Shown: positions 47,300-63,641 of the stretch, one piece after another
Layout: each line of letters starts with the position of its first letter
How positions within the stretch are numbered: position 1 is the stretch's first letter
From: Rhizobium sp. Leaf306
GTDB lineage: Bacteria > Pseudomonadota > Alphaproteobacteria > Rhizobiales > Rhizobiaceae
Length of the DNA stretch: 64,000 nucleotides
NCBI RefSeq assembly: GCF_001423425.1
Contig: NZ_LMNX01000002.1
Coordinates: forward strand, 682,001-746,000
Reading direction: 5' to 3'
Program-made: the position numbers and the translations under genes
The notes under the pieces: generated by a model
What the model saw: the letters and a program-made list of their open reading frames with translations, nothing else
What the model was told of the DNA's origin: nothing
Database searches by the model: none

Positions 47300-48670
47300 A
47301 TGGAAACTAAAGCAAATTACGCCCTCGTTGGCTTTTTTACCTTGCTGGTAATGGCTGCCGCTTTCGGGTTCGTCTACTGGATGGCTTCGTCCGGCCGGGG
47401 AGGCCCCACGGCTGAGCTGGCGATTCGCATTCCGGGCTCCGCAAACGGTCTTTCCGTTGGTTCGGCGGTGCGCTTCAACGGCATCCCGGTCGGCTCCGTG
47501 CGCAGCCTCAGCATCGACCCGGATGATCCGCGCTACTCGATCGCGTTCACCGAAGTGCGCGCCGACGCACCTGTCTACCAGTCGACCAAGGCCGTTCTGG
47601 AAGTTCAGGGCCTGACGGGCGCTGCCTATGTGGAAATGTCGGGTGGTGCCAAGGGTGAAGAAAACATCCTGCAGAAGGCGATCGAGAGTGGCCGTCCTGC
47701 GGTGCTGATCGCCGACCAGTCGAGCGTGACCAACCTTCTTGCGACGGCCGACAAGATCCTCGACCGGGCAGACCAGGCAATTGGCGACATCCAGGGATTT
47801 GTCGGAGACGCACGCGGTCCGCTGACGCAGACTATCCGCAACGTCGAGACGTTTACGGCTGCGCTCAGCAACAATTCGGACAGCATCGACAAATTCCTGA
47901 ACAGCCTCTCGACGCTGTCGGCGACGGTCGATCGCGTCTCCGGCACTTTGAACTCGACGCTCGAAGCAGCTGACCAGCTGGTACGGGCAATCGATGCGGA
48001 GCGCGTCAATCAGGTTGTCACGAACGCCGAACGGGTGACTCGCAACATTGCCAATGCCTCGGACAACTTCGGCCCTCTGGTGCAGAACGTGACCCAGGCG
48101 GCTGCGAGCTTCCAGCAGGCAGGCGTCGATGCGCAGAGCGCCCTGAAACGCGCCGATACGCTCATGGCGGCCGTCGACGTCAATCAGGTCGGCGCTACGA
48201 TCCGCAACATCTCATCGGCATCCGAAGACGCACGCCAGACGCTCAGCTCGGCGCGCGACGTGATCGACGACGTGTCGCGCCGCCGCGACGACATCAACGG
48301 CGCGATCTCCAACTTCACGGACATGTCGACCAAGCTGAACAACGCATCGAACCGCGTCGACGGCATTCTGGCCAAGGTGGACGGGCTGGTTTCCAGCGAC
48401 GACTCGCAGGGTCTGTTTGCCGAGGCGCGCAAGACGCTCGAATCCTTCCGCACCGTCGCCGACAATATCAATTCGCGCGTTGGACCGATTGCCGACAACC
48501 TGTCGCGCTTTTCGTCCGGTGGCTTGAGAGACATCCAAACGCTGATCAACGACACGCGCGGAACCGTGCAGTCGCTCAATCAGGCAATCAGCAATTTTGA
48601 CCAGAACCCCCAGCGCCTGATCTTCGGCGGCGAAACGGTGAAAGAGTACGATGGCAGGACACGGCGCTAA
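47300..48670 (+). CDS. MlaD-type MCE-family protein
   Basis: A 456-residue substrate-binding subunit of the Mla transporter. It has one N-terminal helix (about 7-28), an MCE domain (about 38-120; SVGSAVRFNGIPVGSV and a VQGLTGAAYVEMSGG-like core), then a long helical extension (about 125-430) rich in Asn/Ser/Asp. The extension is much longer than in E. coli MlaD and resembles the helical tails of larger MCE proteins such as PqiB-like tubes, so it may span more of the periplasm. It starts 8 bases after mlaF. Confidence 0.9.
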   Translation: METKANYALVGFFTLLVMAAAFGFVYWMASSGRGGPTAELAIRIPGSANGLSVGSAVRFNGIPVGSVRSLSIDPDDPRYSIAFTEVRADAPVYQSTKAVLEVQGLTGAAYVEMSGGAKGEENILQKAIESGRPAVLIADQSSVTNLLATADKILDRADQAIGDIQGFVGDARGPLTQTIRNVETFTAALSNNSDSIDKFLNSLSTLSATVDRVSGTLNSTLEAADQLVRAIDAERVNQVVTNAERVTRNIANASDNFGPLVQNVTQAAASFQQAGVDAQSALKRADTLMAAVDVNQVGATIRNISSASEDARQTLSSARDVIDDVSRRRDDINGAISNFTDMSTKLNNASNRVDGILAKVDGLVSSDDSQGLFAEARKTLESFRTVADNINSRVGPIADNLSRFSSGGLRDIQTLINDTRGTVQSLNQAISNFDQNPQRLIFGGETVKEYDGRTRR

Positions 48671-48707
48671 CATGCGGGGAGTTCAGGGTTTCATGCAAGG
48701 ATCTGCG

Positions 48708-49301
48708 ATGCTTCGCGTCATGCGCCATCCGATCATCATCGCAGCCCCTTTGATGGCAGCACTTCTGGCCGGTTGTGGCAGCAAGGCGAACAACGACACG
48801 TTCGACCTGTCGATCACGCCGATGGCGAGTGGAGCAACCGCAAAGAGCCGGCAGATCCTGGTGCCTGAACCGACTGCGGTCAAGATGCTCAACAGCGACC
48901 AGGTCGTTGTGCGTATTTCGCCCTCAGAGGTTCAGTATCTGGCCAATTCCCGCTGGGGCGACAGGCTTCCGGCACTGGTCCAGTCGAAGCTGGTCGAAGC
49001 GTTCGAAAACTCAGGACGGGTTGGCGGCGTCGGCAAGCCGGGGCAGGGTCTGGCGATCGACTATCAGGTCGTAACCGATATCCGCAGCTTCGAGGTGGTG
49101 ACTGAGGGCAACAGGCTTGCCACGGTGGAGATCTCGGCAAAGCTCTTGAACGACCGCAACGGCAGCGTTCGTGCCCAGACCGTCTTCAAGGCAACGGTGC
49201 CGGTCGCCGGAACCGAGAACCGCCGCTTCATCGAAGCGCTGGACAAGGCATTTGCACAGGTCGGCGCGAATATTGTCGACTGGGCTCTCAAGGCCATGTG
49301 A
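48708..49301 (+). CDS. PqiC-like ABC-transport auxiliary lipoprotein
   Basis: About 197 residues from ATG 48708 with AAGGA 7 bases upstream; the longer frame overlapping mlaD lacks a site. Lipobox is LLAGC (Cys near 23), so it is outer-membrane anchored. The body is an ABC-type transport auxiliary (PqiC-like) domain: VLVPEPTAVKMLNSDQVVVR-type start, RWGDRLPALVQSKLVEAFEN and IDYQVVTDIRSFEV. It completes the Mla-type operon in place of the E. coli MlaC, which is absent. Ends before a hairpin at 49308. Confidence 0.88.
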   Translation: MLRVMRHPIIIAAPLMAALLAGCGSKANNDTFDLSITPMASGATAKSRQILVPEPTAVKMLNSDQVVVRISPSEVQYLANSRWGDRLPALVQSKLVEAFENSGRVGGVGKPGQGLAIDYQVVTDIRSFEVVTEGNRLATVEISAKLLNDRNGSVRAQTVFKATVPVAGTENRRFIEALDKAFAQVGANIVDWALKAM

Positions 49302-50377: not shown

Positions 50378-53300
50378 TCAGCTGAAGCGACCAGCCGCGT
50401 GGGCGAGCATGGTGTAGACCTTGCCCGTATCCGAGGTCAGGTAGCTCTGGGTGACCGTCTTGTCGCGGTCGGTGCGGGCGACGTCGGCGAGGAGCTTTTC
50501 GAAATCGGCGATGTAGCGATCGACGGCGGTGCGGAATTCCGGCTCGCGCTCGTATTTGCGCTTGATGTCGTCGAACGTCTGCTGGCCCTTCAGCGTGTAG
50601 AGGCGGCGTGTGAACACGTCGCGCTCGCCGCGCTGGTAACGGCGCCAGAGGTCGACCGAGGCGTCGTGATCGATCGCGCGGGCGATGTCGACCGACAGAG
50701 AGTTGAGTGATTCCACCATGTGACGCGGGTTGCGGTTGTCGCCGTTGGTGCGAACCGGCTGGGCCGGTTCGGCTGCTGCCGGGCGTGCAGGCTGCTGCGG
50801 CTGGCGGGCAACTGTGCCTGATGTATCGTCACGCGATGCACCGCGAAGGAGATCGCTGATCCAGCCGCCTTCACCTGGACGCTGCGTTGCGTCAGGCGCG
50901 CGGGAGACCGGGGCCTGAGGCTGTGCGAGAACCTGCGTTACAGGTGGCGTCTGTGACGGCGCCTGGGCAACCGGCTTGGTGACGCCCTGTGCGATGCTCG
51001 GCGTCGGACGATCGAGTGGCAGACTGTCACGAAGGACAGACGAGCCAAACGGTGCGCTCGTCGCGGCGGCCGGTGCCGTCGGGGCTGCAGGGCGCGGGGC
51101 CGCCGGCTGCGGAGCCGGCTGGGCGACCGGAGCAGGGCGTGACACTGCAACCGGCTCGGACACGTCGAGGCTCTGGGCGGACCGGCCGACTAGCTGCGAG
51201 ATGTCCTGCAGGGCCTTGATCTGTTCAGCCACGGCACGGCGCATGGCGGCTGCGCTTTCCTTGGCTTCTTCGGGCAGATCGAACGCGCCGCGCTTCAGTT
51301 CGGTGCGAGTCGCATCGAGTTCCTGGCGAATGTCCTGGGCCGAGCGGCGGATCTCGTCGGTTGCGCCGGTAAAGCGGCCGATCGCCTCTTCAACCGAAAC
51401 CCGCAGCGTATCGCGCAACTGCTGGGCTGCGCCATCGGTGCGGTTTGCGGCGTCGGCCAGCAGGCGCTCAATGTCGCCCATCGAACCGGTGATGCTGCCG
51501 CGCAGGCGCTCGGAGAGATCACGGGCGCGTGTTTCGGCATCCGACAGTGTCGTCTCGATGGCGCGGCTTGCCTCGTTGCCAGCCTCGCTCAGCGTCTCGC
51601 GCATAGCCTGGGCCGTGAGGTTGGCACGCTGCTGGGTTTCGCCCAGGCCGCGGCCGATATCGGCGAAGGAAGCGTGCAGGCTTTCGCGCAGCGATGCGCC
51701 GATCTGCGAGGTGCGATCTTCGGCGCGGGTAAAGGCGCCATCGACGAGCGAGGTCAGACCATTGAGCGTGCCTTCGATTTCCTCCGAACGCTTGACGAGA
51801 CCGGCAGAGAGGGTGCGGAGCGCGGTCTGGCGTTCGTCGAGCGTGCTTGCAAGGTTCGACTGGGCAGCGCCGAGCAGCTCGGATGCCTGAGCGAGAACCT
51901 TGGAGTGATCGTCGAAGCGACCGACAATGCCGCCGACCTGGCTGAGCGTCTGGCCGGAAATGCTGACCAGGCGATCGATGTTGTTTTCGAGCAGGCGGCT
52001 CGAACCGTGCACGAGGTCGGCCGCGCTGTTGGCCGATTCGGCAAAGCGGTTGGCGGTCGCATCGAGCTTCTGATCGGCGTCGGACAACTGTTCGCTGACA
52101 CGGTCCGCTGCCTGGCCGAGATTGCGGGCGGCCTGCTCGACGAGCGACGCGATGCCGGAATTGCTTTCGGCAAGACGCTCGATCAGGCTGTTGACGTTAG
52201 CCGACAGGCTCTGCTCGACGGCGCGCATGGCACCGGTGGCATTCTCTGTCCGCTGGCTGATGGCAGCGAGCGTCTCGTTGGTGCGGGCGGAAATCGCCTC
52301 CACCAGTGCGTCGTTCTCGTTGCGGATGCGGTCGGTCGTATCGCGGGCGGCCGTGGAAAGGCGCTCGGCGCTATCCTGTGCAGCCTGGCTGATGCGCTCG
52401 GCGGCAGACCGGCCGGTCTCGGCATATTCCTCGACCAGCGGCCGTGCCTTTTCGTCGATCAGCTTGGAGAGTTCGGCCGAACGGCTTGAGAGCATCGAGT
52501 TCAGGTCGCGGGTACGGCTGTCGAGTGACGAGCGGATCGATTCGCCACGGGCAGCGAGTGCCTTGTCGACGGCCGAAAGAGCGCTGTCGAGTTCGCCTGC
52601 GGTTTCGGCAAGGGTGTCGCGCAGAGACGTGCCGCGGGCATCGAGCGCCTTTTCGGCATCGCCAAGCGCTTCCGAAATCGCATTGACCTGCTTCTTCACC
52701 AGGCTGTCTGCTTCTGCGACCTTGTGGACGATCGCGTTGCCGGCTTCCGAGAAGGCCTGCGCCACGGTTGCCGCCTGACCGGCAAGCCGGTTCTGGGTTT
52801 CCGAAATGCGGTCGACGATATCGTTGGAGCGCTGTTCGATCGAGCGGGCAAACTCATCGTTGCGGGTGCTGAGTTCTTCCGTGAAGTCTGCGCCGGCGCG
52901 GGCAAGAAGCTCTGCCGAACGGCTGGCTTCGCTATCCATGCCCTGCGCTGCGGCGCTGACGGCGTCGCGCAGGCTGGAGGCGAGGCCGACAGCCTTGCCT
53001 TCGATGGTGCGCGACACGGCGTCTAGGCCGACGGTGAGCGCCCGGTCCATGGTACCGAGGCGTTCCTCGATGCGGGCGGTGCGTGTATCCAGCGTTTCGG
53101 CGATCCGATCCGAGGTTTCGGATCCGATGCGCTCAAATTCCTGCGTGCGGGATGCGAGCGCCTGATTGATGCGGTCTGCAGTTTCTCCCGACAAGCGCTC
53201 CAGTTCGGCCGTGCGATCACTCATCACGGTAGAAACGCGATCGGTCGCAAGGCTGGTAACGCGCTCCAGTTCCGCGGTGCGGGCGCCGAGTGCATCGGCG

Positions 53301-56300
53301 ATACTGTTGCCGGCCGTGTCGACCAGGCTGGTCGCATTGCCCAGTTCCGAGCGGATGCGTTCTTCCAGACCACCGAAGGTCGTCTCGATCCGGGTGCCGG
53401 CGCCATCGAGGGCGGTAGAAACGCCGCCGACAGTTTCTTCGACGCGGCTCGAGAATCCCTCTGCGGAGGCTGTGATTTCGCGGGCGGCTTCGTTGAGCTG
53501 GCCTGCAATCGCGCCGACGTTTTCGCGCAGACGCGTTTCCAGGTTTTCACCGGCGCCGTCGATCGTGGCGCGCAGCGATTCCTGCTGGGCTTCGAGGGAC
53601 ATTTCCAGCATGCCGGCGCTGGTTGCGATGGTGGCGCCGATCGATGTTGCCTGATCCAGCATCAGGTCGGCCAGATGGTTTTGCGCATTGGTGAGCGTGC
53701 TGGCAATCAGGCCGCCGCGATCGTCGAGTGTCGAGCGAATGCGCTCGTAGCCGCCATCGAGTGTAGACGAGAGCTGGCGGTTTGCGGTGTCGAGCGTCTC
53801 GGCCATCTGACCGTGTGCCGTCGTGACCTTTTCGGATATGTCGCGGCTTGCGGTATCGACGACGCCTGAGATCTGTACGGCAGCGGTGCCGACCGTGTCG
53901 CTGATGGTGCGGGTTGCTCCATCCAAGGTCGAGGCGATGTTGCGCGTTGCGTCGCCGACGGACTGGGAGATGTTCTGGGCGCCCGAACCGACCGTCGAGG
54001 AAATCTCGTAGTTGGCGGCGCCGAGCGTCTGCGCGATGTCCTGTCCGGCTGTGGCAAGCGTATCGGCGAGCTGCTGGTGACCGAGGCCGATCGTTGCAGC
54101 AATCCGCTGCTGGGTGGCGTCGAAGGTTTCGTCCATCCGCTGCAGGCCATCGGCCATGCCGGTTTCGAAGCGGCTGGTGCCATCGGTGAGGGCGGATTCA
54201 ATACGTGTGGCTGCGCCACCGACCGAGTTTTCGAGACGAGCGCTGCCACCGTCGAGGATGCGGGACAGTTCCGCAGCCTGGGTTTCGAGCGTGATGTCGA
54301 GGCCGAGCTGGCCGTCCTGGTAGGCACTGCGGATTGCATCCGTGCGATCTGCAAACGCGCTTTCGATGCGTTCCGCTGCACCGCCGACGGATGTCTCAAG
54401 CTGCGCGCTGCCGGACTGGATGATGCGCGACAGTTCCGAGGCGTGGGTCTCGAGCGTGATGTCGAGGCCGAGCTGGCCTTCCTGATAGGCGCTGCGGATG
54501 GCATCGGTACGATCGGCAAAGGCGCTTTCGATGCGCTGGGCTGCACCGCCGACGGACGTCTCAAGCTTCTCGCTACCGCCCTGGATGATGCGGGTGAGTT
54601 CCGAAGCGTGCGTTTCGAGTGTGATGTCGAGGCCGAGCTGGCCTTCCTGATAGGCGGTGCGGATCGCATCGGTACGATCGGCAAAGGCGCTTTCGATACG
54701 CTGGGCTGCGCCGCCGACGGATGTCTCAAGCTTCTCGCTGCCGCCTTCGATGATGCGGGTAAGTTCCGAAGCGTGCGTTTCGAGTGTGATGTCGAGGCCG
54801 AGCTGACCTTCCTGATAGGCAGTGCGGATTGCGTCGGTACGATCTGCGAACGCCGTTTCGATACGCTGGGCTGCGCCGCCGACGGATGTCTCAAGCTTCT
54901 CGCTGCCGCCTTCGATGATGCGGGTGAGTTCCGAGGCATGCGTTTCGAGCGAGATGTCGAGACCGAGCTGACCTTCCTGATAGGCGTTGCGGATCGCTTC
55001 GGTACGATCGGCGAAGGCGCTCTCGATGCGCTGGGCTGCGCCGCCGACGGATGTCTCAAGCTTCTCGCTGCCGCCTTCGATGATGCGGGTGAGTTCCGAG
55101 GCATGCGTTTCGAGTGTAATGTCGAGACCGAGCTGACCTTCCTGATAGGCGTTGCGGATCGCGTCGGTGCGATCGGCAAAGGCAGCTTCAATGCGGCCGG
55201 CAACCCCTTCTACGGAATTCTCGAGGCGTTCGCTGCCGCCGTCGAGAATGCGCGCCAGTTCCGAGGTCTGGGTCGCAAGCGTGATGTCGAGACCAATCTG
55301 GCCGTCCTGATAGACGCTGCGGATCGCTTCGGTGCGTTCGGCCAACGTGGCTTCGATCCGTTCGGCTGCACCGCCGACAGACTTATCGAGCCGTTCGCTG
55401 CCGCTGTCGATGATGCGGGAAAGCTCGGAGACGTGGCTTTCGAGCGAGAGATCGAGACCGAGCTGGCCGTCCGTATAGGCCGTGCGGATTGCTTCGGCGC
55501 GAGCGGCGAACGTGTGTTCGATACGGCTGTCTGCATCCGATACGGCGCCGATCAGAGCTGCCGTCTTTTCTTCGAGTGCGCCTGTGAGGCGATCTTCGTG
55601 CAGGGCAAGCGAAGTCGCGATGTCCATCGATCGGTCATCGAAGATCTCAGCGAGGCGGTCGCGGTTGGCGGCAAGCGTCGTGTCGAGGCTCGTCACCTTG
55701 CGCTCCAGTTCGCTGCCGAGCCGGATCTCGCTGTCGGACAGCGCCTTCGACAGGACTTCAGTCTTGTCGTCGAACATTGAAGAGAGGCGCTCGGGTGTTC
55801 CCGACATCAGCTCGCTGATTGCCGAGGTGCGGCTGTCGAGGACTTCTGCAAGACGATCGTGGCTGCCGGTGACCGCATCGATGAGGGCGTCCGCGCGCGA
55901 ACCGACGGCGCCCTCGAAACGGGCCTGGCTATCGGAGAGTGCGGCGGCGAGTGCCGTGCCGCGTTCGACCATGACGGCGTCGACCTTGTTGTGGGCGTCG
56001 CCGAAGCTGTGGCTGATTTCGTTGCTGCGAGCAGCAAGCGCATCGGAAAATTCGCGGGCGCGGTTTTCGAGCATGGAGTCCAGCACTTCCTGGCCGGTTC
56101 CAAGCGTCGTTGCGAGCGCCAGCGACTGGTCGGTCAGTGCATTGCCGATCCGGTCGATGCTGGACGACAGGATGCCTTCGATCGCATCCGAACCGCCTGC
56201 GACGGTTTCGTTGATGCGGGCGAGGCTGTCCATCAGCTTGCTATCAAGCGTGCCGGCGCGCTGGTCGAATGCCGTGGTAAAATGCGACAGGCCGTCGTCG

Positions 56301-57733
56301 AAGGTTGCCGAAAGCTGGCCAACGGTTGCCTGGAGACGGTCTTCGAACAGGCCGGAGCGGAGGTCGAGATCCATGATTGCGTCGTCGGACGCGGTCTGGA
56401 GGCTCTGGCGGAATGTGGCGCTCTTCTGGTCGAGCGAGCGGTTGAGCGCGGCGATTGCCGTGTCCAGCGTGCCGCCGAGCGTCTTCTCGCTGTCGTTTAG
56501 GCCCTCGGTGATTTCGCGGGTGCGGGCGAGCAGCGTCTCGTTGAGCTGACGGGTACGGTCGGCGAGGGCGGCGTTCAGCTTTTCGGTGTTGGCATCGATG
56601 GTCGACGCACGGGTTTCGAACTGGCCGAGCAATTCCTGACCGCGTTCGGACATGGTCGATGTGAGCGTGTCGAGGCGGATATCGAACTCGGTGGCCAGAG
56701 CGATACCGGACGATGCCAGGCTCGAGACAAGGTTTTCGGCACGGGCGGCCATCAGGGAGCTGAGCGCTTCACCGGCAGCCTCGGATTTTGCGATGAGAGA
56801 CGCGGCGCGGGTGTCGATCATCGAGGCAAAGGCCTCGCCTGACGTGGCAAGGCGAACGGAGATCTCCTCTGTCGACAGCGACAGGTCTTCCTTCAGCTGC
56901 TCGTGCACGCCGACGATCGACGAGCGGATACGTTCTGCGTGGTTGACGATCGCGTCGCGCTCGGCGCCGAGTTCGTGAACCAGGCCGCGGACGCGCAGCT
57001 CGTTGTCTGTATAGCTGCGTTCCAGCGCGTTGACTTCGGAATGAACCAGCGTTTCCAGCTCGGAGGCACGCGCAATGGTGCGCTCGATGCCTTCGTTCAT
57101 CGCAGACACTTCGCGGCGGACAGCCTGGCCGACCGACATGATGCGCTCGGAGGCAATGGTTTCCGGTTCGGAGAGACGCAGGGCCACTTCCGCCATCGAG
57201 CGGGCCGCATTGCGCAGATCAGCAGCTCTCGCCATCATGATCGCGAAGGCGAAGAAAAGCATGATCGGCAGCAGGATGCCGACGACGAGGGCGACGATTC
57301 CCGGTGCAGCGAGGACGCCGGCGACCGAGGTGAATTCCCACAGCTGGCTGCCGTAGATCAGCTGGCCGAGACCGATACCCGCAACAACCCAGAAGAACGA
57401 GATAATGGCGGCATTGCGGACGGCGCTCTTGATCGAGCCGCCTTCGAGCGAACGAAGAATCGCATTCGGGGTGCGGCGACCGGCATCATTGGCCGGCTCG
57501 AAAGCGGGCTGTCGGGCTGTCGTTTCGGGACCGGCCTGACGAGGCGGAGCGGATTGCGGATTTTGTGAGGACGATGGGGAGCGCTGCCTTGGCGTATCCG
57601 ACACTCTGGTCTCCGAAGCGGTCTGAGTTGGTCGGGCGCGAGGCTGCTCGCCGTTGAAGTCGATCTTCAGCGCTTCTTCCAGTGCCTGGAAAGCCGTCTC
57701 ATCGACCGACTCGCTGCTCGTTTTCTTCGCCAT
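50378..57733 (-). CDS. rgsE: GPR/RgsE-like polar growth ring protein (giant coiled-coil membrane protein)
   Basis: A 2451-residue protein from ATG 57733 (the frame extends 8 residues upstream to 57757). Order of parts: basic/acidic N-terminal tail (1-95), two membrane helices (about 105-127 and 137-167), a vast alpha-helical body (170-2190) of apolipoprotein-like 11-residue-phased repeats, with eight near-identical 55-residue repeats at about 736-1175, a Pro/Ala/Gln-rich linker (about 2190-2325) and a conserved C-terminal region (2325-2451). This layout matches the Agrobacterium GROWTH POLE RING protein and Sinorhizobium RgsE, which form a ring at the growing pole and work with Rgs and Tol-Pal proteins. 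A role in unipolar growth is inferred. Followed by a strong terminator. Confidence 0.85.
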   Translation of the reverse strand: MAKKTSSESVDETAFQALEEALKIDFNGEQPRARPTQTASETRVSDTPRQRSPSSSQNPQSAPPRQAGPETTARQPAFEPANDAGRRTPNAILRSLEGGSIKSAVRNAAIISFFWVVAGIGLGQLIYGSQLWEFTSVAGVLAAPGIVALVVGILLPIMLFFAFAIMMARAADLRNAARSMAEVALRLSEPETIASERIMSVGQAVRREVSAMNEGIERTIARASELETLVHSEVNALERSYTDNELRVRGLVHELGAERDAIVNHAERIRSSIVGVHEQLKEDLSLSTEEISVRLATSGEAFASMIDTRAASLIAKSEAAGEALSSLMAARAENLVSSLASSGIALATEFDIRLDTLTSTMSERGQELLGQFETRASTIDANTEKLNAALADRTRQLNETLLARTREITEGLNDSEKTLGGTLDTAIAALNRSLDQKSATFRQSLQTASDDAIMDLDLRSGLFEDRLQATVGQLSATFDDGLSHFTTAFDQRAGTLDSKLMDSLARINETVAGGSDAIEGILSSSIDRIGNALTDQSLALATTLGTGQEVLDSMLENRAREFSDALAARSNEISHSFGDAHNKVDAVMVERGTALAAALSDSQARFEGAVGSRADALIDAVTGSHDRLAEVLDSRTSAISELMSGTPERLSSMFDDKTEVLSKALSDSEIRLGSELERKVTSLDTTLAANRDRLAEIFDDRSMDIATSLALHEDRLTGALEEKTAALIGAVSDADSRIEHTFAARAEAIRTAYTDGQLGLDLSLESHVSELSRIIDSGSERLDKSVGGAAERIEATLAERTEAIRSVYQDGQIGLDITLATQTSELARILDGGSERLENSVEGVAGRIEAAFADRTDAIRNAYQEGQLGLDITLETHASELTRIIEGGSEKLETSVGGAAQRIESAFADRTEAIRNAYQEGQLGLDISLETHASELTRIIEGGSEKLETSVGGAAQRIETAFADRTDAIRTAYQEGQLGLDITLETHASELTRIIEGGSEKLETSVGGAAQRIESAFADRTDAIRTAYQEGQLGLDITLETHASELTRIIQGGSEKLETSVGGAAQRIESAFADRTDAIRSAYQEGQLGLDITLETHASELSRIIQSGSAQLETSVGGAAERIESAFADRTDAIRSAYQDGQLGLDITLETQAAELSRILDGGSARLENSVGGAATRIESALTDGTSRFETGMADGLQRMDETFDATQQRIAATIGLGHQQLADTLATAGQDIAQTLGAANYEISSTVGSGAQNISQSVGDATRNIASTLDGATRTISDTVGTAAVQISGVVDTASRDISEKVTTAHGQMAETLDTANRQLSSTLDGGYERIRSTLDDRGGLIASTLTNAQNHLADLMLDQATSIGATIATSAGMLEMSLEAQQESLRATIDGAGENLETRLRENVGAIAGQLNEAAREITASAEGFSSRVEETVGGVSTALDGAGTRIETTFGGLEERIRSELGNATSLVDTAGNSIADALGARTAELERVTSLATDRVSTVMSDRTAELERLSGETADRINQALASRTQEFERIGSETSDRIAETLDTRTARIEERLGTMDRALTVGLDAVSRTIEGKAVGLASSLRDAVSAAAQGMDSEASRSAELLARAGADFTEELSTRNDEFARSIEQRSNDIVDRISETQNRLAGQAATVAQAFSEAGNAIVHKVAEADSLVKKQVNAISEALGDAEKALDARGTSLRDTLAETAGELDSALSAVDKALAARGESIRSSLDSRTRDLNSMLSSRSAELSKLIDEKARPLVEEYAETGRSAAERISQAAQDSAERLSTAARDTTDRIRNENDALVEAISARTNETLAAISQRTENATGAMRAVEQSLSANVNSLIERLAESNSGIASLVEQAARNLGQAADRVSEQLSDADQKLDATANRFAESANSAADLVHGSSRLLENNIDRLVSISGQTLSQVGGIVGRFDDHSKVLAQASELLGAAQSNLASTLDERQTALRTLSAGLVKRSEEIEGTLNGLTSLVDGAFTRAEDRTSQIGASLRESLHASFADIGRGLGETQQRANLTAQAMRETLSEAGNEASRAIETTLSDAETRARDLSERLRGSITGSMGDIERLLADAANRTDGAAQQLRDTLRVSVEEAIGRFTGATDEIRRSAQDIRQELDATRTELKRGAFDLPEEAKESAAAMRRAVAEQIKALQDISQLVGRSAQSLDVSEPVAVSRPAPVAQPAPQPAAPRPAAPTAPAAATSAPFGSSVLRDSLPLDRPTPSIAQGVTKPVAQAPSQTPPVTQVLAQPQAPVSRAPDATQRPGEGGWISDLLRGASRDDTSGTVARQPQQPARPAAAEPAQPVRTNGDNRNPRHMVESLNSLSVDIARAIDHDASVDLWRRYQRGERDVFTRRLYTLKGQQTFDDIKRKYEREPEFRTAVDRYIADFEKLLADVARTDRDKTVTQSYLTSDTGKVYTMLAHAAGRFS
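54207..55526 (-). repeat. Eight tandem 165-bp repeats inside the growth-pole gene
   Basis: The stretch encodes eight consecutive 55-residue units (consensus start RIESAFADRTDAIR, then AYQEGQLGLDITLETHASEL, then GGSEKLETSVGGAA). Period of exactly 165 bp is seen by comparing the ATGTCTCAAG landmark at 54721, 54886 and 55051. Middle units (3-7) are almost identical at DNA level; outer units have diverged. Boundaries approximate to a few bases. Confidence 0.9.
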
Positions 57734-58199
57734 GCGGTTACGCCTCGTTACACTCACCCGGCGCTTTCGTTCCAGCTCTGCCGCCTGCAGGCTGGAAGTC
57801 GGGTCGCCGACCGGAACCCGGCCCGTGCGTCATGCTGGCCGCAATTCCACTTTACTCACAATTCGAACGGCCGTTGTTGCAAACGGATGATAATGAAAGC
57901 TTACCACCGTTCCGCCGCCAGACGCAGGATGGTTTACACACCCATCTCAACCGTCCTGTAGTGACACATTCGTGTCTTTCACACAATTGCTCGGCCGGGA
58001 TCGGCCCGGAAAGCAGATTTGTTGTTAACAGAATTTAAACCACGAAAAATGTCGAAACCCCTGACATTTCGTGAGGTTGATGGAAATTAACCATGTCCCG
58101 AAATTTGCGCCGTGATTGTGCCGGAATTTAACGGGATAGGCAGCCGCTGTCCCGCATCACTGGGACGCATGATTGAGCCCCAAAGAGGAACAGAGTTTC
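57734..58199. other. Divergent promoter region between the growth-pole gene and the Hpt gene
   Basis: 466 bases between divergent starts, more AT-rich than coding DNA. Contains TTAA-N6-TTAA at 58025-58038, similar to but one base shorter than a CtrA box, and an imperfect inverted repeat (ATGTC-N8-GACAT) near 58050. No small gene seen. Confidence 0.5.
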
Positions 58200-58568
58200 A
58201 TGTCAGCGGCGAATACTGCTTTTTCAACGCCCACTAGCCCGCGCGGGGCATGTCCTTCGCAGTCGCGCCCGATCGATCTCGTGCATCTTGCCCGCCAGAC
58301 GATGGGCGACAAGACACTGGAAAACGAAGTGCTGATGATGTTTGCCCGCAACGCCCGCCGGGCGCTGCAGGACATGACGGGCGCAGACGCTGCCGGGGTT
58401 GCGATGACGGCGCATCGCCTGAGGGGGGCTGCATCTGCGGTCGGCGCGTTCGGCGTTTCCAAAGCGGCAGAGAAACTGGAAGCAGACGGTGCCGACGCCG
58501 CGCATTTGGCCGCGCTTGCCGCGTGTGTCGTGGAAGCCGAGAACTTCATCCTGAAACTCTGCCGCTGA
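58200..58568 (+). CDS. Hpt-domain histidine phosphotransfer protein
   Basis: A 122-residue single-domain phosphotransfer protein from ATG 58200, with AAAGAGGAA upstream. The Hpt H-box is [15 protein letters not shown] with His72 as the phospho-acceptor, in a four-helix arrangement (residues about 35-120). It lacks the kinase core, so it is a relay between a sensor kinase and a response regulator. Which ones is unknown; two histidine kinases lie in the window but neither is hybrid. Divergent from the growth-pole gene. Confidence 0.88.
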
Positions 58569-58687
58569 TCCGTGACAGTTGGAGGGCGCCGCAAGACAAC
58601 GGCGCGTCGTCCGTTCGTGTTGACTGGACCGGTGATTTATCGGAAGACAACCGGCCAAGACTGCCACTCAATGCGGATTTCCTGATT

Positions 58688-59008
58688 ATGACGAAACTGA
58701 CCCTCGTTGCCTTCGACGGTACGCGCTTCGATATCGAAGCTGACAACGGCTCCACAGTGATGGAGAACGCCGTGCGCAATTCCGTGCCAGGCATAGAGGC
58801 CGAATGCGGCGGCGCCTGTGCCTGTGCCACCTGTCATGTCTATGTCGACGATGGCTGGACCGAAAAGGTCGGTCCTCCGGCAGCGATGGAAGAAGACATG
58901 CTCGACTTCGCCTTTGAGGTGAAGCCGACCTCGCGGCTGTCCTGTCAGATCAAGATCAAGGCCGATCTCGACGGTCTGATCGTGCACGTTCCAGAACGTC
59001 AGGCCTGA
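58688..59008 (+). CDS. Adrenodoxin-type 2Fe-2S ferredoxin
   Basis: A 106-residue ferredoxin from ATG 58688. Cluster ligands are Cys40, Cys46, Cys49 and Cys86 (CX5CX2C plus distal Cys), with an extra Cys44 within [12 protein letters not shown]. Length and spacing fit the adrenodoxin/Fdx class that serves cytochrome P450s or the ISC pathway. No iscS or P450 gene is adjacent, so the redox partner is unknown. Separated from the Hpt gene by about 120 bases. Confidence 0.93.
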
Positions 59009-59456
59009 ACCAAACCAGACGACCCTCTTCCAAAAAAATGCCTCGCTGCGCAGTTAGCGCAAGCGAGGCAAGGCAGGCGCATAGCCGCAAGGCGAGGGAG
59101 GAAAACGCCTGCGGCCGCAATTGCGCCGGGGAGACCTGTGAAGCTTGTACAAGGCAACAACGCGGGACCTCTCTCGGTCCAAGTGCCTGATCGCGGCCGC
59201 GAACATCTGCGGCGCCTGAACGGGTGGATCCGGGCACCGTGGCCGGGATCGCGGGCGGCTGGATGACCCTTGATATGGGTCGTTGGCAGCGCCGTTCTGT
59301 TGCTACGGTTTTAGCCCAGACACACACATTAGTATATTGTTATAAGTCACCGATGAATGACAGGGTGGTGCGAAAGCTCCGCGCAAGTCTTGGGAAAGGT
59401 CGGGCTACGGGTCGGTTGATTGGCTGTGCCGATCGATGTCGTCTTTCGTTGCCCGA
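59009..59456. other. Intergenic region with a minus-strand terminator; possible small RNA
   Basis: 448 bases without a gene I can support. It holds an intrinsic terminator for the minus strand at 59032-59070 and an AT-rich stretch (ATATACTAAT on the minus strand) near 59325-59345 that could be a promoter, which would give a transcript of about 290 bases. Sequence does not match SRP RNA, tmRNA, 6S or RNase P motifs that I know. Confidence 0.4.
59032..59070 (-). terminator. Minus-strand intrinsic terminator
   Basis: 13-bp stem with one bulge (59039-59051 with 59057-59070); on the minus strand it is followed by seven T (59038-59032). It is about 390 bases past the DUF922-like stop, so it could end that transcript or an independent small RNA. 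Confidence 0.7.
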
Positions 59457-60071
59457 TCAGTCGCGCTTCATCCGGTATTTCAGAAGACGGGTCATCCGCT
59501 CGTCGAAGTTCTTCGACTCGACCTGGTCGAACCGCATCTGTTCCCGGTCGTGTGCTTCCAGAAGATCGCGAGTCGCATCGGCGACCTTCTTTTCGAGGCT
59601 ATCACAACTGCTGGGCGTCGATAGGTCCAGAAGCTGTCTCTCGAGAATGCGGGCATGGGTGCGGGCAATCTCGGCATGGCGTTCTTCGTGGCGCTTGATG
59701 TCTGCCGAAAGCGTGTCCCATATCATGCCAAGATCCGCGTCTGCACGACGTCGATTGATCCAGCGTGGCAGAACGATATGGGTACGCAGTGTGACCCTTG
59801 CGGCGCCGACCGTGCATCGATTGGCGCGCTCGACATAGGTCACTTCCCCGCCGAATTTGATTTCGGTTGCACCGGGATGACGGTGGCCGGTCGTGCGGGT
59901 CAGCGGACCGCGTTTTTCCAGCTCCTTGTCGAGGTCTTCGGCAGTTTTGCCGCCGATCTGAAAATACGAGTAAGTCTTGGTGATGATCGGTGCGGCCGAT
60001 GCGGGAGAGGCGAAGACGCCTGCAAGAAGTACGGTACCGATGAGACGGCGAACCGCGCGCATTGAAAACAT
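59457..60071 (-). CDS. Secreted DUF922-family putative metalloprotease-like protein
   Basis: About 204 residues from ATG 60071 (ATG 60062 is possible). Residues 1-25 form a signal peptide (IGTVLLAGVFASPASA). The C-terminal part has RHEERHAEIA, an HxxxH-type zinc site in the position used by DUF922 domains, and further histidine/cysteine residues (GHRHPG, NRCTVG, SSCDSLEKK). DUF922 proteins are predicted Zn-dependent proteases of unknown target. Divergent from folP; shares a short leader. Confidence 0.75.
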   Translation of the reverse strand: MFSMRAVRRLIGTVLLAGVFASPASAAPIITKTYSYFQIGGKTAEDLDKELEKRGPLTRTTGHRHPGATEIKFGGEVTYVERANRCTVGAARVTLRTHIVLPRWINRRRADADLGMIWDTLSADIKRHEERHAEIARTHARILERQLLDLSTPSSCDSLEKKVADATRDLLEAHDREQMRFDQVESKNFDERMTRLLKYRMKRD

Positions 60072-60147
60072 TCTGTGGCCTGCAACGTTGAACTTTAAAA
60101 GAGCTTGGGGCATAGCGAGACCAAGCGCAACACGAGGTCCCTGAATT

Positions 60148-61044
60148 TTGCGTCAACTCTCCGAAGATGATTGGCCGGTGATATCGCGGCGCAACACGCA
60201 CTGGCAATTGGCGCGCGGACGCGTGCTGGAACTCGGCGCGCAAGGCCATATCATGGCGATCGTCAACGTGACCCCAGACTCGTTTTCCGACGGCGGTCGG
60301 CATGCGCAAACGGATGGCGCCGTGCGGCATGCGCTGAGCTGCGTCGCCGAAGGTGCTGCCATCCTCGATATCGGTGGCGAATCGACACGGCCCGGCGCGG
60401 CGGCGGTGACGCCTGCCGAAGAACAGGATCGCATCCTGCCGGTGATCGAGAAGCTTGTCGGCGAAACCGACGCTATCATCTCGGTCGATACCTATCGTGC
60501 GGTAACGGCGCGGCTGGCGATGGCTGCCGGCGCCCACGTCATCAATGACGTACATGGACTTCAGCGCGAACCCGATATGGCTGACGTCGCGGCCGAGACA
60601 GGTGCCGGTATCTGCATCATGCATACGGGACGCGACCGGACGGATCGACGTGCGGACATGATCGAAGACCAGCAGTATTTCCTCACGCGGTCTCTCAAGA
60701 TCGCGCATGCTGCCGGGATCAAGGATGCGGCGATCGTGCTCGATCCCGGGTTCGGATTTGCCAAGAACCGGGACGACGACATGGAACTGATCGCCCGCTT
60801 TCGCGAGTTGCAGTCACTCGGATTTCCCTTGCTCGCCGGGACGTCGCGGAAGCGGTTTGTCGGTTCAGTCACGATGCGGGATCCGGCCGATCAGCGGGAT
60901 ATCGGCACGGCTGCAACGACTGCGATCCTCCGACTCGCTGGTGCGGCGATCTTCCGGGTTCATAATGTCGCGGCCAACCGCGATGCCCTGCTGATGGCAG
61001 ATGCGGTTCTGGCGTCCCGTGCGGCGCAACGGGAGGAGAGCTGA
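60148..61044 (+). CDS. folP: Dihydropteroate synthase
   Basis: A 298-residue enzyme joining p-aminobenzoate to dihydropterin pyrophosphate in folate synthesis; target of sulfonamides. Signatures: MAIVNVTPDSFSDGG (near 36-50), DIGGESTRPGA, VDTYRA, ILDPGFGFAKN and GTSRKRFVG. TTG 60148 is the only workable start; no strong SD is seen. The first ~30 residues are longer than in E. coli FolP. Its stop overlaps the folB ATG by 1 base. Confidence 0.95.
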   Translation: MRQLSEDDWPVISRRNTHWQLARGRVLELGAQGHIMAIVNVTPDSFSDGGRHAQTDGAVRHALSCVAEGAAILDIGGESTRPGAAAVTPAEEQDRILPVIEKLVGETDAIISVDTYRAVTARLAMAAGAHVINDVHGLQREPDMADVAAETGAGICIMHTGRDRTDRRADMIEDQQYFLTRSLKIAHAAGIKDAAIVLDPGFGFAKNRDDDMELIARFRELQSLGFPLLAGTSRKRFVGSVTMRDPADQRDIGTAATTAILRLAGAAIFRVHNVAANRDALLMADAVLASRAAQREES

Positions 61045-61409
61045 TGGGGACCTACAGCATCGCCTTGAAAAACTGCGCCTTCTTCGCTCGTCATGGAGCC
61101 TTTGCGGAAGAAGAGAGGCTCGGTCAGCGATTCTATGTCGATCTCGTCATGCATGTGGATGCCGAAGAAGCGCTGGAGGACGACAACGTCGAGAGCACCG
61201 TGCACTATGGCAAAGCCTATGAAATCGTCGAGAGGATCGTGACCGGCACGCGCCGCAACCTGATCGAGACGCTGGCCAAGGACATTGCTAGGGCGCTTTG
61301 CGCCTGGTCGTCGCAGATCCGAAGGGTCGAGGTGACGGTGCGTAAGCCGAGCGTGCCGATCCCGGGAATTCTTGATCATGCCGAAGTGAGGATCGAGCAT
61401 GTCGCGTGA
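61044..61409 (+). CDS. folB: Dihydroneopterin aldolase
   Basis: A 121-residue enzyme converting dihydroneopterin to hydroxymethyldihydropterin and glycolaldehyde. The opening IALKNCAFFARHGAF and the Glu in EEERLGQRFYVDL are the family active-site region, with a later Lys in TVRKPSVPIPG. Overlaps folP by 1 base and folK by 11 bases, as expected for a coupled folate operon. Confidence 0.94.
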   Translation: MGTYSIALKNCAFFARHGAFAEEERLGQRFYVDLVMHVDAEEALEDDNVESTVHYGKAYEIVERIVTGTRRNLIETLAKDIARALCAWSSQIRRVEVTVRKPSVPIPGILDHAEVRIEHVA

Positions 61410-61920
61410 CGGCTCGATGAAATTGGTAGCCCTTGGGCTCGGCGGTAACGTCGGTGATCCGCGGGCTGCGATGGCAGATGCGTTGAGGGAACTCGATGCC
61501 CGATCGGACTGTCGGGTGCTCGCCGTATCCCGGCTTTATGCCACGCCGCCATGGGGAAAGACGGATCAGGCCGAGTTCCTGAACTGCTGCGCCCTGATCG
61601 AGACCTCGCTTCATCCCGAGTCGCTTCTCGATGTCTGTCTTGATATGGAAAGGCGGCGCAAGCGTGAGCGCGTCGAGCGCTGGGGCCCGAGAACCATCGA
61701 TATCGACATCCTGACCTACGGCGACAGCGCGTATCACTCCGAGACGCTGGAGCTTCCCCATCCGCGCATGACGGCGAGGGGCTTTGTGATGATGCCGCTT
61801 GCCGATGTCGCGCCCGAAATGGTCCTCGGACAGAAAAATGTCCGCGACTGGCTGGCAGAGGCGGACATCGAAGGCATTAGGATCGCTGACGCAGACAGGG
61901 ATTGGTGGATTAGGGCTTGA
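61399..61920 (+). CDS. folK: 6-hydroxymethyl-7,8-dihydropterin pyrophosphokinase
   Basis: A 173-residue kinase, the step before FolP. ALGLGGNVGDPRAA opens the protein, RVLAVSRLYATPPWG contains the pterin-binding segment, and RWGPRTIDIDILTY is the family signature with its Asp pair. ATG 61399 follows GAGGATCGAG; ATG 61417 is an alternative. The last 11 bases overlap, in opposite orientation, the 3' end of the next gene. Confidence 0.95.
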   Translation: MSRDGSMKLVALGLGGNVGDPRAAMADALRELDARSDCRVLAVSRLYATPPWGKTDQAEFLNCCALIETSLHPESLLDVCLDMERRRKRERVERWGPRTIDIDILTYGDSAYHSETLELPHPRMTARGFVMMPLADVAPEMVLGQKNVRDWLAEADIEGIRIADADRDWWIRA

Positions 61921-62464
61921 TCGAACCGACGGCGATCGAATCCAGATCGCGATCCAGCGACAGGCCGATCACGGGCACCATCTGGTCTTCGACCTTCACC
62001 GAAATGGTGATGTTCATCTTGTTCTCGCCGCGCAGGCTGGCGACCATGGCGCCGTTCAGCTGGGCACGGTTGATGCCCATCACGACCTTGTCGCCATTGA
62101 CGGAGCCGGAGACGATGTCGAGGCCCTTGCCCTGGGCGCCGTCCAGGAACTTGCCGGAATAGCCGGTGCTGCTCTGGCTGATGACCGCGGACATCGGCTG
62201 CTGGAAAACGCCGACGCGGCAGGTGCCATCGAGCTTGATGCCGACAGTGCCATCCGGCTGTGCAGCGCCAATCAGGTTGCAGCTGAACTTCGTACCCTTG
62301 TACTTGCCCGCGACGATTTCGCCCGGACCCTTCCAGACGCCACCGACCTGCTGGAAAAAGGATTTGTCACGCGAAGCCGCGGAGGCCTCCGGTGCCAGGG
62401 CGGGAGCAGTTGCGATGGTCAGTGCAACGATGCCACCGAAAAGCGAAAAGAAGCGCGAATACAT
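61910..62464 (-). CDS. Secreted hypothetical protein, conserved-looking in rhizobia
   Basis: About 184 residues from ATG 62464 (ATG 62494 is longer). A signal peptide (FGGIVALTIATAPALAPEASA) is followed by a beta-rich domain with VWKGPGEIVAGKYKGTKFSC, one disulfide pair candidate (the Cys in FSCN and in GTCRVG) and repeated Gly. I recognise no named domain. Its 3' end overlaps folK by 11 bases in convergent orientation. Periplasmic role unknown. Confidence 0.75.
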   Translation of the reverse strand: MYSRFFSLFGGIVALTIATAPALAPEASAASRDKSFFQQVGGVWKGPGEIVAGKYKGTKFSCNLIGAAQPDGTVGIKLDGTCRVGVFQQPMSAVISQSSTGYSGKFLDGAQGKGLDIVSGSVNGDKVVMGINRAQLNGAMVASLRGENKMNITISVKVEDQMVPVIGLSLDRDLDSIAVGSIKP

Positions 62465-62567
62465 GTGCTTTCCCTTGGAAACCAGAAACTTCAAGTGCCT
62501 CGCAAATTAGCTTGGAATGGTTAATGACTGGTATCTTTTCGGGTCATTAAGGGTCACAGAGGCGCGA

Positions 62568-63641
62568 TCAATCGGTCTTGCGCGGGCCGACGGGAGAGAT
62601 GTCGGACATGAAATCGCCGATCCCCGGGCGCTTCACAGCGTGGAAGGGAAGAGGGCGGCAAAGATCCATCGCGGCAATGCCGATACGCGCCGTCAGCAGG
62701 CCGTTGATGACGCCTTCGCCGAGTTTGCTTGAAAGCCTCGATGCCAAACCATGGCCCAGAACCTGCTGAGCGATTCCGTCTCCAACTGCGATCGAACCTG
62801 TCACCGCCAGATGCGCCATCACGTCCCGCATGAGCTTCAACAGTCCGAGCGTGCCTGGGCGCCCGCCGTAGAGGTCCGCCATCGCGCGGATCAGTCGTGT
62901 CACCTCGAACAGGACATAGACGAGATCAACGACCGCGCGGGGGCTGACAGCGGTGACGACCGAGACCCGTTTCGAGGCGCCAAGAATGAGGACGCGTGCC
63001 TGCCGGTCGAGCGGCGACAGGAGTTCTCGCTCGGCGAGATCGATGAGTTGTGGCCCGTCGATGATGTCGTCTTTCGTCGCATCGAGCGCGGCACGTCCGC
63101 GGGCGGTCTCCGCCCGGTGACCTGTCAGTTTCGTGAGCGCGGCGACGACGGTTCTGGCTGCCGTCGGCCTTGGTGATTTCAGGGCGTCTTCCGCTTGCGT
63201 CTTCAGCGTCTGGACCGCAGCAAGCCGCATCATCCCGATGATTTCGCGACCGACCATGACCAGAAGCGCGACGATGCCGACGCCCAGCGCTGCCGCTGCG
63301 GCGTAACCGAGCCAGTCGGACCGTGCAAAGAGATCCCGGATGATCCGATCCGCCCAGAGGCCGAACGCAAGCGACAGGAACGTGCCGAAGGCCGCGGCCG
63401 CGAGGTTGGCGAAGGAGAAACGCTTCCGCTTCACCGGCACGGCGACGGCCAGCGCGTCTGGTGAAAGTTCCTGCGGGCTGATGAACGGATCGAGCTCGTC
63501 CGGCGTGATGGCGATGCCATCGTCAAACCGGCGGGGTGCGCGGTTCGGGTGGGTCTGTGGCTCTTCTTTCGTCGGAATGTCGTCGTCTACGACGAAGGAA
63601 GTTGGGCGGCGGCGGTCATCGGTGATCTTGCGGTCGGTCAT
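62568..63641 (-). CDS. YcjF-like TIGR01620/DUF697 inner-membrane protein
   Basis: A 357-residue protein with two adjacent helices (about 75-93 and 108-131), a helical region and DUF697-type C-terminal part (ARVLILGASKRVSVVTAVSP, then GDGIAQQVLGHGLASRLSSKLGEGVINGLLTARIG). Family partner of the YcjX GTPase-like protein. Overlaps the next gene by 4 bases (ATGA), supporting a YcjX-YcjF unit. Function unknown; linked to stress and envelope genes in other bacteria. Confidence 0.85.
   Translation of the reverse strand: MTDRKITDDRRRPTSFVVDDDIPTKEEPQTHPNRAPRRFDDGIAITPDELDPFISPQELSPDALAVAVPVKRKRFSFANLAAAAFGTFLSLAFGLWADRIIRDLFARSDWLGYAAAAALGVGIVALLVMVGREIIGMMRLAAVQTLKTQAEDALKSPRPTAARTVVAALTKLTGHRAETARGRAALDATKDDIIDGPQLIDLAERELLSPLDRQARVLILGASKRVSVVTAVSPRAVVDLVYVLFEVTRLIRAMADLYGGRPGTLGLLKLMRDVMAHLAVTGSIAVGDGIAQQVLGHGLASRLSSKLGEGVINGLLTARIGIAAMDLCRPLPFHAVKRPGIGDFMSDISPVGPRKTD

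Follow-up and report, generated by a model that had tools for sequence, protein, structure and literature searches.

The closest known proteins to the one described here are the polar-growth proteins GPR of Agrobacterium tumefaciens (Atu1348, 2115 aa) and RgsE of Sinorhizobium meliloti (2089 aa). According to the sections of PMC8262873 used here, GPR has two N-terminal TM segments, forms a ring of six foci at the growing pole of Agrobacterium, and has a body that was proposed to lie on the membrane or bind lipid. RgsE is called a large, repeat-containing protein in the excerpted text of PMC7327166, in which the length filter was widened to +/-50%; according to the same text, S. meliloti tolerates loss of RgsE but then grows slowly. 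We analyzed a gene of this kind in a 64,000-bp stretch of DNA from Rhizobium sp. Leaf306 (the window), in which an earlier note, made from the sequence alone, had pointed to an array of 165-bp repeats.

The gene starts with a GTG codon, with an ATG 8 codons further in, and its product runs from a membrane-anchored head through a body of ~1900 residues to a Pro-rich tail (Table 1); the borders of head, body and tail are approximate in all region comparisons reported below. The membrane segments were judged by eye in alignment A1 of the head, which comprises 14 sequences. Within the genus, 56 of 57 genomes matched the 307-aa head, the main matches being 64-83% identical, and the head was present in 293 of the 297 family genomes and 144 of the 150 order genomes searched, the named relatives including Neorhizobium, Rhizobium, Pseudorhizobium and Ciceribacter. 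The body was scored as apolipoprotein PF01442 with 204.7 bits, against a curated cut-off of 90 (Pfam). The conserved head, the PF01442 body and the Rhizobiales-wide spread fit the growth-pole ring gene named in the earlier note, and by these features we assign the window gene to the GPR/RgsE type of polar-growth protein, a label taken from the architecture and distribution described in the consulted parts of PMC8262873 and PMC7327166 and not from alignment with Atu1348 or SMc00190.

Table 1 Features of the putative growth-pole gene and its repeat array in the window
Feature	Position	Strand	Basis
GPR/RgsE-type growth-pole protein gene (assigned)	50378..57757	(-)	single intact ORF, 2459 aa
Two likely membrane-spanning segments, conserved head, about aa 118-176	57230..57406	(-)	by eye, alignment A1
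Array of eight 55-aa (165-bp) units, aa 754-1193	54179..55498	(-)	Tandem Repeats Finder (TRF) and translation
Unit 1, diverged	55334..55498	(-)	
Unit 2, diverged	55169..55333	(-)	
Unit 3, inner; 86-bp identical tract in common with unit 4	55004..55168	(-)	
Unit 4, inner; 70-bp identical tract in common with unit 5	54839..55003	(-)	
Unit 5, inner	54674..54838	(-)	
Unit 6, inner	54509..54673	(-)	
Unit 7, 82-89% protein identity to units 3-6	54344..54508	(-)	
Unit 8, diverged; predicted as one uninterrupted helix together with the sequence after it	54179..54343	(-)	
Pro-rich tail and C-terminal end	50381..51229	(-)	border approximate, set by proline content

Identity as the anti-phage motor protein ZorA was rejected, as the NF033914 profile scored 63.2 bits against a cut-off of 190 and its best stretch (aa 385-707) lies in the body. 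A profile of the head gave no match to solved structures at E up to 1, and a 933-residue piece of the C-terminal half gave none at E 0.001. Genes for MlaD and an ABC auxiliary lipoprotein adjoin on one side (window 47300-49301), and Hpt domain, 2Fe-2S ferredoxin, DUF922 and DUF697 genes lie on the other (window 58173-63641). In one genome of the same genus, rated 99% complete (G049), neither the head nor the C-terminal end was matched, which may be a loss or an assembly gap. Several strongly reduced family genomes, of 1.0-1.6 Mb (e.g. G062, G146, G148, G236), retain the head match, which was only weak in G131 (E 4e-7); no head match was found in G437 and G470, two order genomes of 1.3-1.4 Mb from another family.

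TRF placed the array at 54241-55497 with a period of 165, 7.6 copies, 0% indels and a score of 1481, and eight 55-residue units were read from the translation, in agreement with the earlier note. The unit borders are arbitrary: the interval given earlier, 54207-55526, spans 1320 bp (8 x 165), and the register used here is that of Table 1. The description of all eight repeats as near-identical was overstated, and the inner five that had been singled out come down to four. Units 3-6 shared 91-98% protein identity and 88-94% DNA identity with each other, unit 7 was only 82-89% and 83-87% identical to them, respectively, and units 1, 2 and 8 shared 60-78% protein identity and 72-78% DNA identity with all other units. 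The 55-residue unit equals five hendecads, with large hydrophobic residues at two positions per 11 (read from units 3-6); the earlier note missed this, together with the whole-turn rule for the gene described below. Two long ORFs lie over the array in other frames, at 54077-55780 (+, 567 aa) and 53707-55203 (-, 498 aa), and are most likely shadows of biased, repeated coding sequence. Elsewhere in the window, 60 bases of a chemotaxis-receptor gene (20655-20714, within 18888-21449) shared 77% identity with a piece of the array region, probably by chance between helical coding sequences, and a 48-bp tandem repeat with 2.1 copies was found at 14458-14558, within the OmpA-domain ORF 14215-16539.

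Pairwise comparison of units 3-6 gave dS values of 0.18-0.44 and dN values of 0.01-0.05 (dN/dS about 0.03-0.17), although dS from 165-bp units is noisy. Because these units differ at 16-33% of their synonymous sites, their near-identity is largely the work of purifying selection on the protein, with recent exchange only local, and a fresh duplication with all units identical by recent descent was rejected on the same figure. The comparison of synonymous with nonsynonymous change that had been proposed as a check thus marks the units as constrained but not brand new. The recent exchange or gene conversion that had been held responsible for the near-identity was traced only in part of the array, with identical tracts of 86 bp between units 3 and 4, 70 bp between units 4 and 5, and 62 bp between units 3 and 5. 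Local exchange among units 3-5 probably happened, since the runs of matching polymorphic sites in these three pairs exceeded the shuffled expectation (permutation, p = 0.0012 for 3/4, 0 of 5000 shuffles for 4/5 and p = 0.011 for 3/5); the remaining seven of the ten unit pairs showed no excess of such runs (p 0.17 or more). In pairs with unit 1, 2 or 8, dS reached 0.5-1.1, and the window gene differed from two relatives by dS of 0.91 and 1.05. Judged by unit dS against these two gene values, the center of the array is younger than the split from those relatives and its edges are perhaps as old.

The variation in copy number was followed in a set of 152 distinct genes, of which 96 came from the window, the genus and the 80 named loci; another 60 loci of the family supplied the other 56, after removal of 4 duplicates. 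Both flanks of the array were matched in 130 of the 152; 43 failed the end criterion, and 86 relatives were left. Among the 39 best-scoring of these 86, the flank-to-flank distance was 60 residues in 16 and 126 in another 16, the remaining distances being 71 (2), 115 (2), 104, 258 and 280. In all 39, the distance is 60 or departs from it by a multiple of 11; the distance of 445 in the window equals 60 + 7 x 55. The 47 lower-scoring relatives were dropped, 29 of them having negative distances, as their flanks had ceased to match at orthologous positions; even so, 34 of these 47 distances are offset from 60 by a multiple of 11. In the pairwise alignment with locus L120, the array appeared as one 385-residue gap. 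Judged from these alignments, the array is specific to its lineage and was amplified from one copy to eight. Unit number differs strongly among relatives, in support of the copy-number idea of the earlier note, with one unit in many of them and eight here, and in place of a single number common to all, distances of 60, 126 and other values stand against 445.

Arrays with a TRF score of 150 or more numbered 159, in 119 of the 152 genes, and all were in frame. Their unit lengths were 11, 18, 22, 29, 33, 36, 40, 44, 51, 55, 58, 62, 66, 69, 73, 80, 88, 108, 110 and 116 aa. A tree built from the conserved ends (FastTree) held 135 of the 152 genes, the other 17 being without a usable head or end, and 56 of its 129 inner branches were weakly supported. 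For the 66 genes whose arrays score 400 or more, this tree requires no fewer than 28 switches of main unit length. Within the group L183, L223, L224 and L225, sister species differed by whole units, in steps of 66 or 132 residues exactly, and the bodies of R. daejeonense and R. cremeum differed by 132 residues, with one genome per species in the collections compared. The longest frames fetched were L222, L183 and L223-L225, with L195 (2896-3392 aa), and their 66-residue arrays had 4.4 to 9 copies. Family frames ran from roughly 1350 to 3392 aa among the matches listed, leaving out a few shorter and probably cut ones. At the level of the order, open frames of about 400 to 2940 aa were seen, and contig ends may have truncated the short ones. 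Draft frames or contigs break in or near the array in L122/L077 (G031), L152/L080 (G032) and L135, and unit counts from draft assemblies may be unreliable.

Outside the arrays, the body showed a single sharp hydrophobic period of 3.656 residues (power 14.0, next local maximum 1.0; 1479 segments), which is close to the 11 residues per 3 helical turns of a hendecad. The unit lengths of 157 of the 159 arrays fell within 0.16 turn of a whole number of 3.656-residue turns. The phase R was 0.919 over all 159 arrays. Counting each of the 20 distinct lengths once gave 0.768 (Rayleigh p about 7e-6), which is the fairer figure because arrays share ancestry, and restricting these to the 14 of at least 40 aa gave 0.704. 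The exceptions were the periods of 108 and 116 aa, which are 0.46 and 0.27 turn off at 3.656 and fit 3.6 and 3.625. The analysis was replicated on 40 genes from other families of the order, selected for long frames and congeneric pairs, in which 69 arrays in 34 genes gave R = 0.981 with unit lengths of 11, 18, 22, 29, 33, 40, 44, 62, 66 or 88 only. By this measure the GPR/RgsE-type gene follows the whole-turn rule throughout the examined portion of the order. The net summed body changes, unfiltered, gave R = 0.56 at the fixed period of 3.656, which we count against the reading preferred below, with the qualification that even a slight misfit of the period weighs on large sums (385 residues equal 105 turns at 11/3 and 105.3 at 3.656).

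Indels in the body were compared with those in the head and tail of the same proteins, using nearest relatives picked by their conserved ends with no repeat finder. Of 109 pairs, 87 were kept (>=55% identity) and 22 were under this cut; 9 of the 152 genes were too short, and 28 of the other 143 were without a head anchor and were given a default border. None of the 141 filtered body indels was of 1, 2, 3, 5 or 6 aa; the sizes seen were 4, 7, 11, 15, 18, 22, 29, 33, 36, 44, 48, 55, 58, 66 and more. Indels of 1-3 aa made up 94 of 122 in the Pro-rich tail and 38 of 45 in the head. The flank filter removed 120 body, 95 head and 208 tail gaps; unfiltered, 3 of 261 body gaps were of 1, 2, 3, 5 or 6 aa (those three being of 1-2 aa), and several further gaps were off-phase, at 10, 12, 14, 19, 25, 26, 32 aa and others. 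Five alignment and filter settings gave 0, 0, 0, 1 and 0 body indels of 1-3 aa, and the rate of such indels was 4.3 per 1000 aligned residues in the tail versus 0 in 133,821 body residues. When each gene was used only once (53 disjoint pairs, 43 over the identity cut), indels of 1-3 aa accounted for 0 of 76 in the body versus 39 of 52 in the tail (Fisher p = 5.5e-22). The other-family genes gave 0 of 18 body indels of 1-3 aa versus 18 of 24 tail indels, from 16 of 22 pairs, the other 6 being under 50% identity. A built-in control is thus provided within one gene, as the body takes hundreds of extra residues but almost never 1-3, and the tail takes mainly 1-3. Selection for phase is the simplest cause of the missing 1-3 residue body indels; repeat-driven recombination fails to explain their absence because such indels need no repeats and arise in the tail.

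The 200-aa piece modeled with AlphaFold as a single chain, which extends from the end of unit 7 through unit 8 and 136 residues beyond, was predicted from a 28-row alignment as one 198-residue helix (residues 2-199, pLDDT 87.4). A single-sequence model of the whole array had a pLDDT of 39.5 with strands present and was discarded. The hydrophobic stripe was narrow, with 89% large hydrophobic residues at its center and 15-19% at 60 degrees on either side, and the body was acidic, with an average net charge of -5.9 per 100 residues. In a count over the bodies of 143 proteins longer than 1500 aa, basic residues were concentrated to one side of the stripe (18-22% at 60-120 degrees vs 7-9% at 270-300), with acidic residues opposite, and this handed charge pattern may reflect in-register salt bridges. 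A broad hydrophobic face is a feature of lipid-binding helices, for which the Heliquest scale has thresholds of 1.34 and 0.68. By its narrow stripe and acidic character, the body resembles a coiled-coil core more than a lipid-binding face, a comparison made without an apolipoprotein control.

The explanation that we prefer, and consider probable, is that the body forms a continuous hendecad helix, most likely a coiled-coil tail of the parallel homo-oligomeric kind, whose length is free and whose phase is fixed, with the array as a length module. A 55-residue segment (five hendecads, 15 turns) would have been multiplied from one to eight by unequal exchange. Many duplication lengths presumably arise, and the survivors would be those that add or remove near-whole turns and keep the stripe continuous. 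The stripe would form the core of a homo-oligomeric coiled coil with parallel, in-register chains, in which any extra length could be tolerated if phase is kept, because all subunits would lengthen together. The array would then act as a length module that separates the membrane ring from whatever is bound by the C-terminal end, and with a helix rise of 0.15 nm per residue, each unit would add ~8 nm. The two halves of the body showed no compensating length changes (Spearman 0.18, p = 0.24, 43 pairs; 13 of the same sign, 7 opposite), on which weak evidence a fixed hairpin fold was rejected; the gain of hundreds of residues without half-to-half compensation would fit a parallel in-register bundle better. 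The GPR foci of 50 nm, taken by the authors as folded protein in the portion of PMC8262873 used here, count against our explanation. In the constructs described there, GFP sits at the N terminus, and for this reason the foci may mark the anchored end only. The contrast between body and tail indels within one gene is evidence from natural variation that the giant helix acts as a single phase-coherent unit, which speaks against a loosely folded lipid carrier, and the species provide a ready-made natural length series for asking how GPR length affects polar growth. Whether GPR is an evolvable molecular ruler, in which whole-turn blocks copied species by species set the bundle length and the distance from the ring to a cytoplasmic partner, and hence the geometry of pole and cell, is a more speculative matter, which we regard as doubtful.

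The body could also be an apolipoprotein-like amphipathic helix lying on membrane or lipid, with phase keeping the lipid-facing side continuous and more units giving more lipid surface. The PF01442 score far over the cut-off agrees with this, as does the finding that the only solved-structure matches of the array at E 0.01 were to apolipoprotein A-IV (2.3e-4 and 1.7e-3); moreover, apolipoproteins are described with an 11/22-residue periodicity in the excerpts of PMC7431520, and deletion of the A-IV-like regions disturbed GPR function in the part of PMC8262873 consulted. We nevertheless consider it unlikely, given the narrow hydrophobic side and the negative charge of the body, and given that of 37,924 18-mers only 0.2% reached a Heliquest D of 1.34 and 4.6% one of 0.68 (no apolipoprotein control). 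A surface helix is also flexible and can break and restart, so the strict rejection of 1-3 residue indels would be less expected of it. Still harder to maintain, and quite improbable in our judgment, is a purely mutational origin of the whole-turn rule, in which duplications are seeded by the 33-bp-step similarity of ancestral 11-residue repeats whatever the protein needs. Exact multiples of 11 account for 105 of the 141 filtered body indels and 106 of the 159 array periods, and there are exchange tracts within the array, as such an origin would predict; a recombination bias to 11-residue similarity could partly explain this preference, and we count that against the phase-fixed coiled coil. 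A purely mutational origin leaves unexplained why the body is free of 1-3 residue indels, which need no repeats and occur in the tail at the rate given above, and likewise those whole-turn lengths that 11 does not divide (7, 18, 29, 36, 40, 51, 58, 62, 69, 73, 80).

That unit number is neutral is a serious possibility, if somewhat less than an even one: phase alone would matter, the array would represent drift in a tolerant spacer, and ring geometry would be unaffected. This is compatible with the phase-fixed coiled coil except for its last step. Body length varies readily, differing in 37 of the 43 disjoint pairs and by the 66- and 132-aa steps between sister species; the third and fourth tenths of the body take over half of the residues gained or lost, and the range of frame lengths in the order is wide even if the shortest are perhaps contig-cut. 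The purifying selection on each unit seen in the dN/dS of units 3-6 argues against neutrality, though phase and stripe alone might demand it. An assembly artefact, with the unit count or the near-identity made by the assembler, we regard as highly improbable. Arrays can break assemblies, as in the L135 contig that ends inside its array and the split frames of G031 and G032, but the units in the window differ at 6-28% of bases, which is enough for single placement, the 7.4-kb frame is unbroken and lies on a 1.18-Mb contig in an assembly of 9 contigs, and the same kind of array occurs elsewhere, including the one-contig genomes G119 and G159 (L215, L217).

Like GPR and RgsE as presented in the consulted parts of PMC8262873 and PMC7327166, the window protein has a head with two membrane segments, a very long apolipoprotein-like helical body and a Rhizobiales-wide distribution; it differs from them, as described there, in the lineage-specific tandem amplification and the whole-turn rule. 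No description of GPR/RgsE tandem arrays or of a whole-turn indel rule was found in the literature searched, which did not include the 2019 paper naming GPR, and the search is not proof that either is new in print. With apolipoproteins A-I, A-IV and E (PF01442) the protein shares the 11/22-residue helical periodicity and internal repeats reported in the extracts of PMC7431520, together with its Pfam and PDB sequence matches. Unlike them, it is narrow-striped, acidic, thousands of residues long and membrane-anchored, and the composition of its body does not look lipid-binding-like by a simple index, applied without an apolipoprotein control. In phytochrome-linked diguanylate cyclases and photoreceptor histidine kinases, natural differences in linker length are largely multiples of the coiled-coil period; 54% of the cyclases fall on period multiples and 38% at -4, and off-register lengths alter function (PMC9587094, PMC6798134, both in part). 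Those quantized linkers are short heptad segments that pass signals, whereas the body described here is built of hendecads over ~1900 residues and changes by up to hundreds of residues. Its hydrophobic period near 11/3 is that of hendecad coiled coils. A control with the SMC coils of the genus of the window was uninformative on quantization, with no filtered coil indel in 20 nearest or 294 total pairs (28 of 30 fetched loci were long enough, many were cut at one end, and the coil limits are approximate). In synaptonemal-complex proteins, coil indels are depleted according to the sections of PMC8598163 used here. Synaptonemal-complex and SMC coils keep length itself, whereas the length of the body in the window protein is plastic and phase alone appears to be kept.
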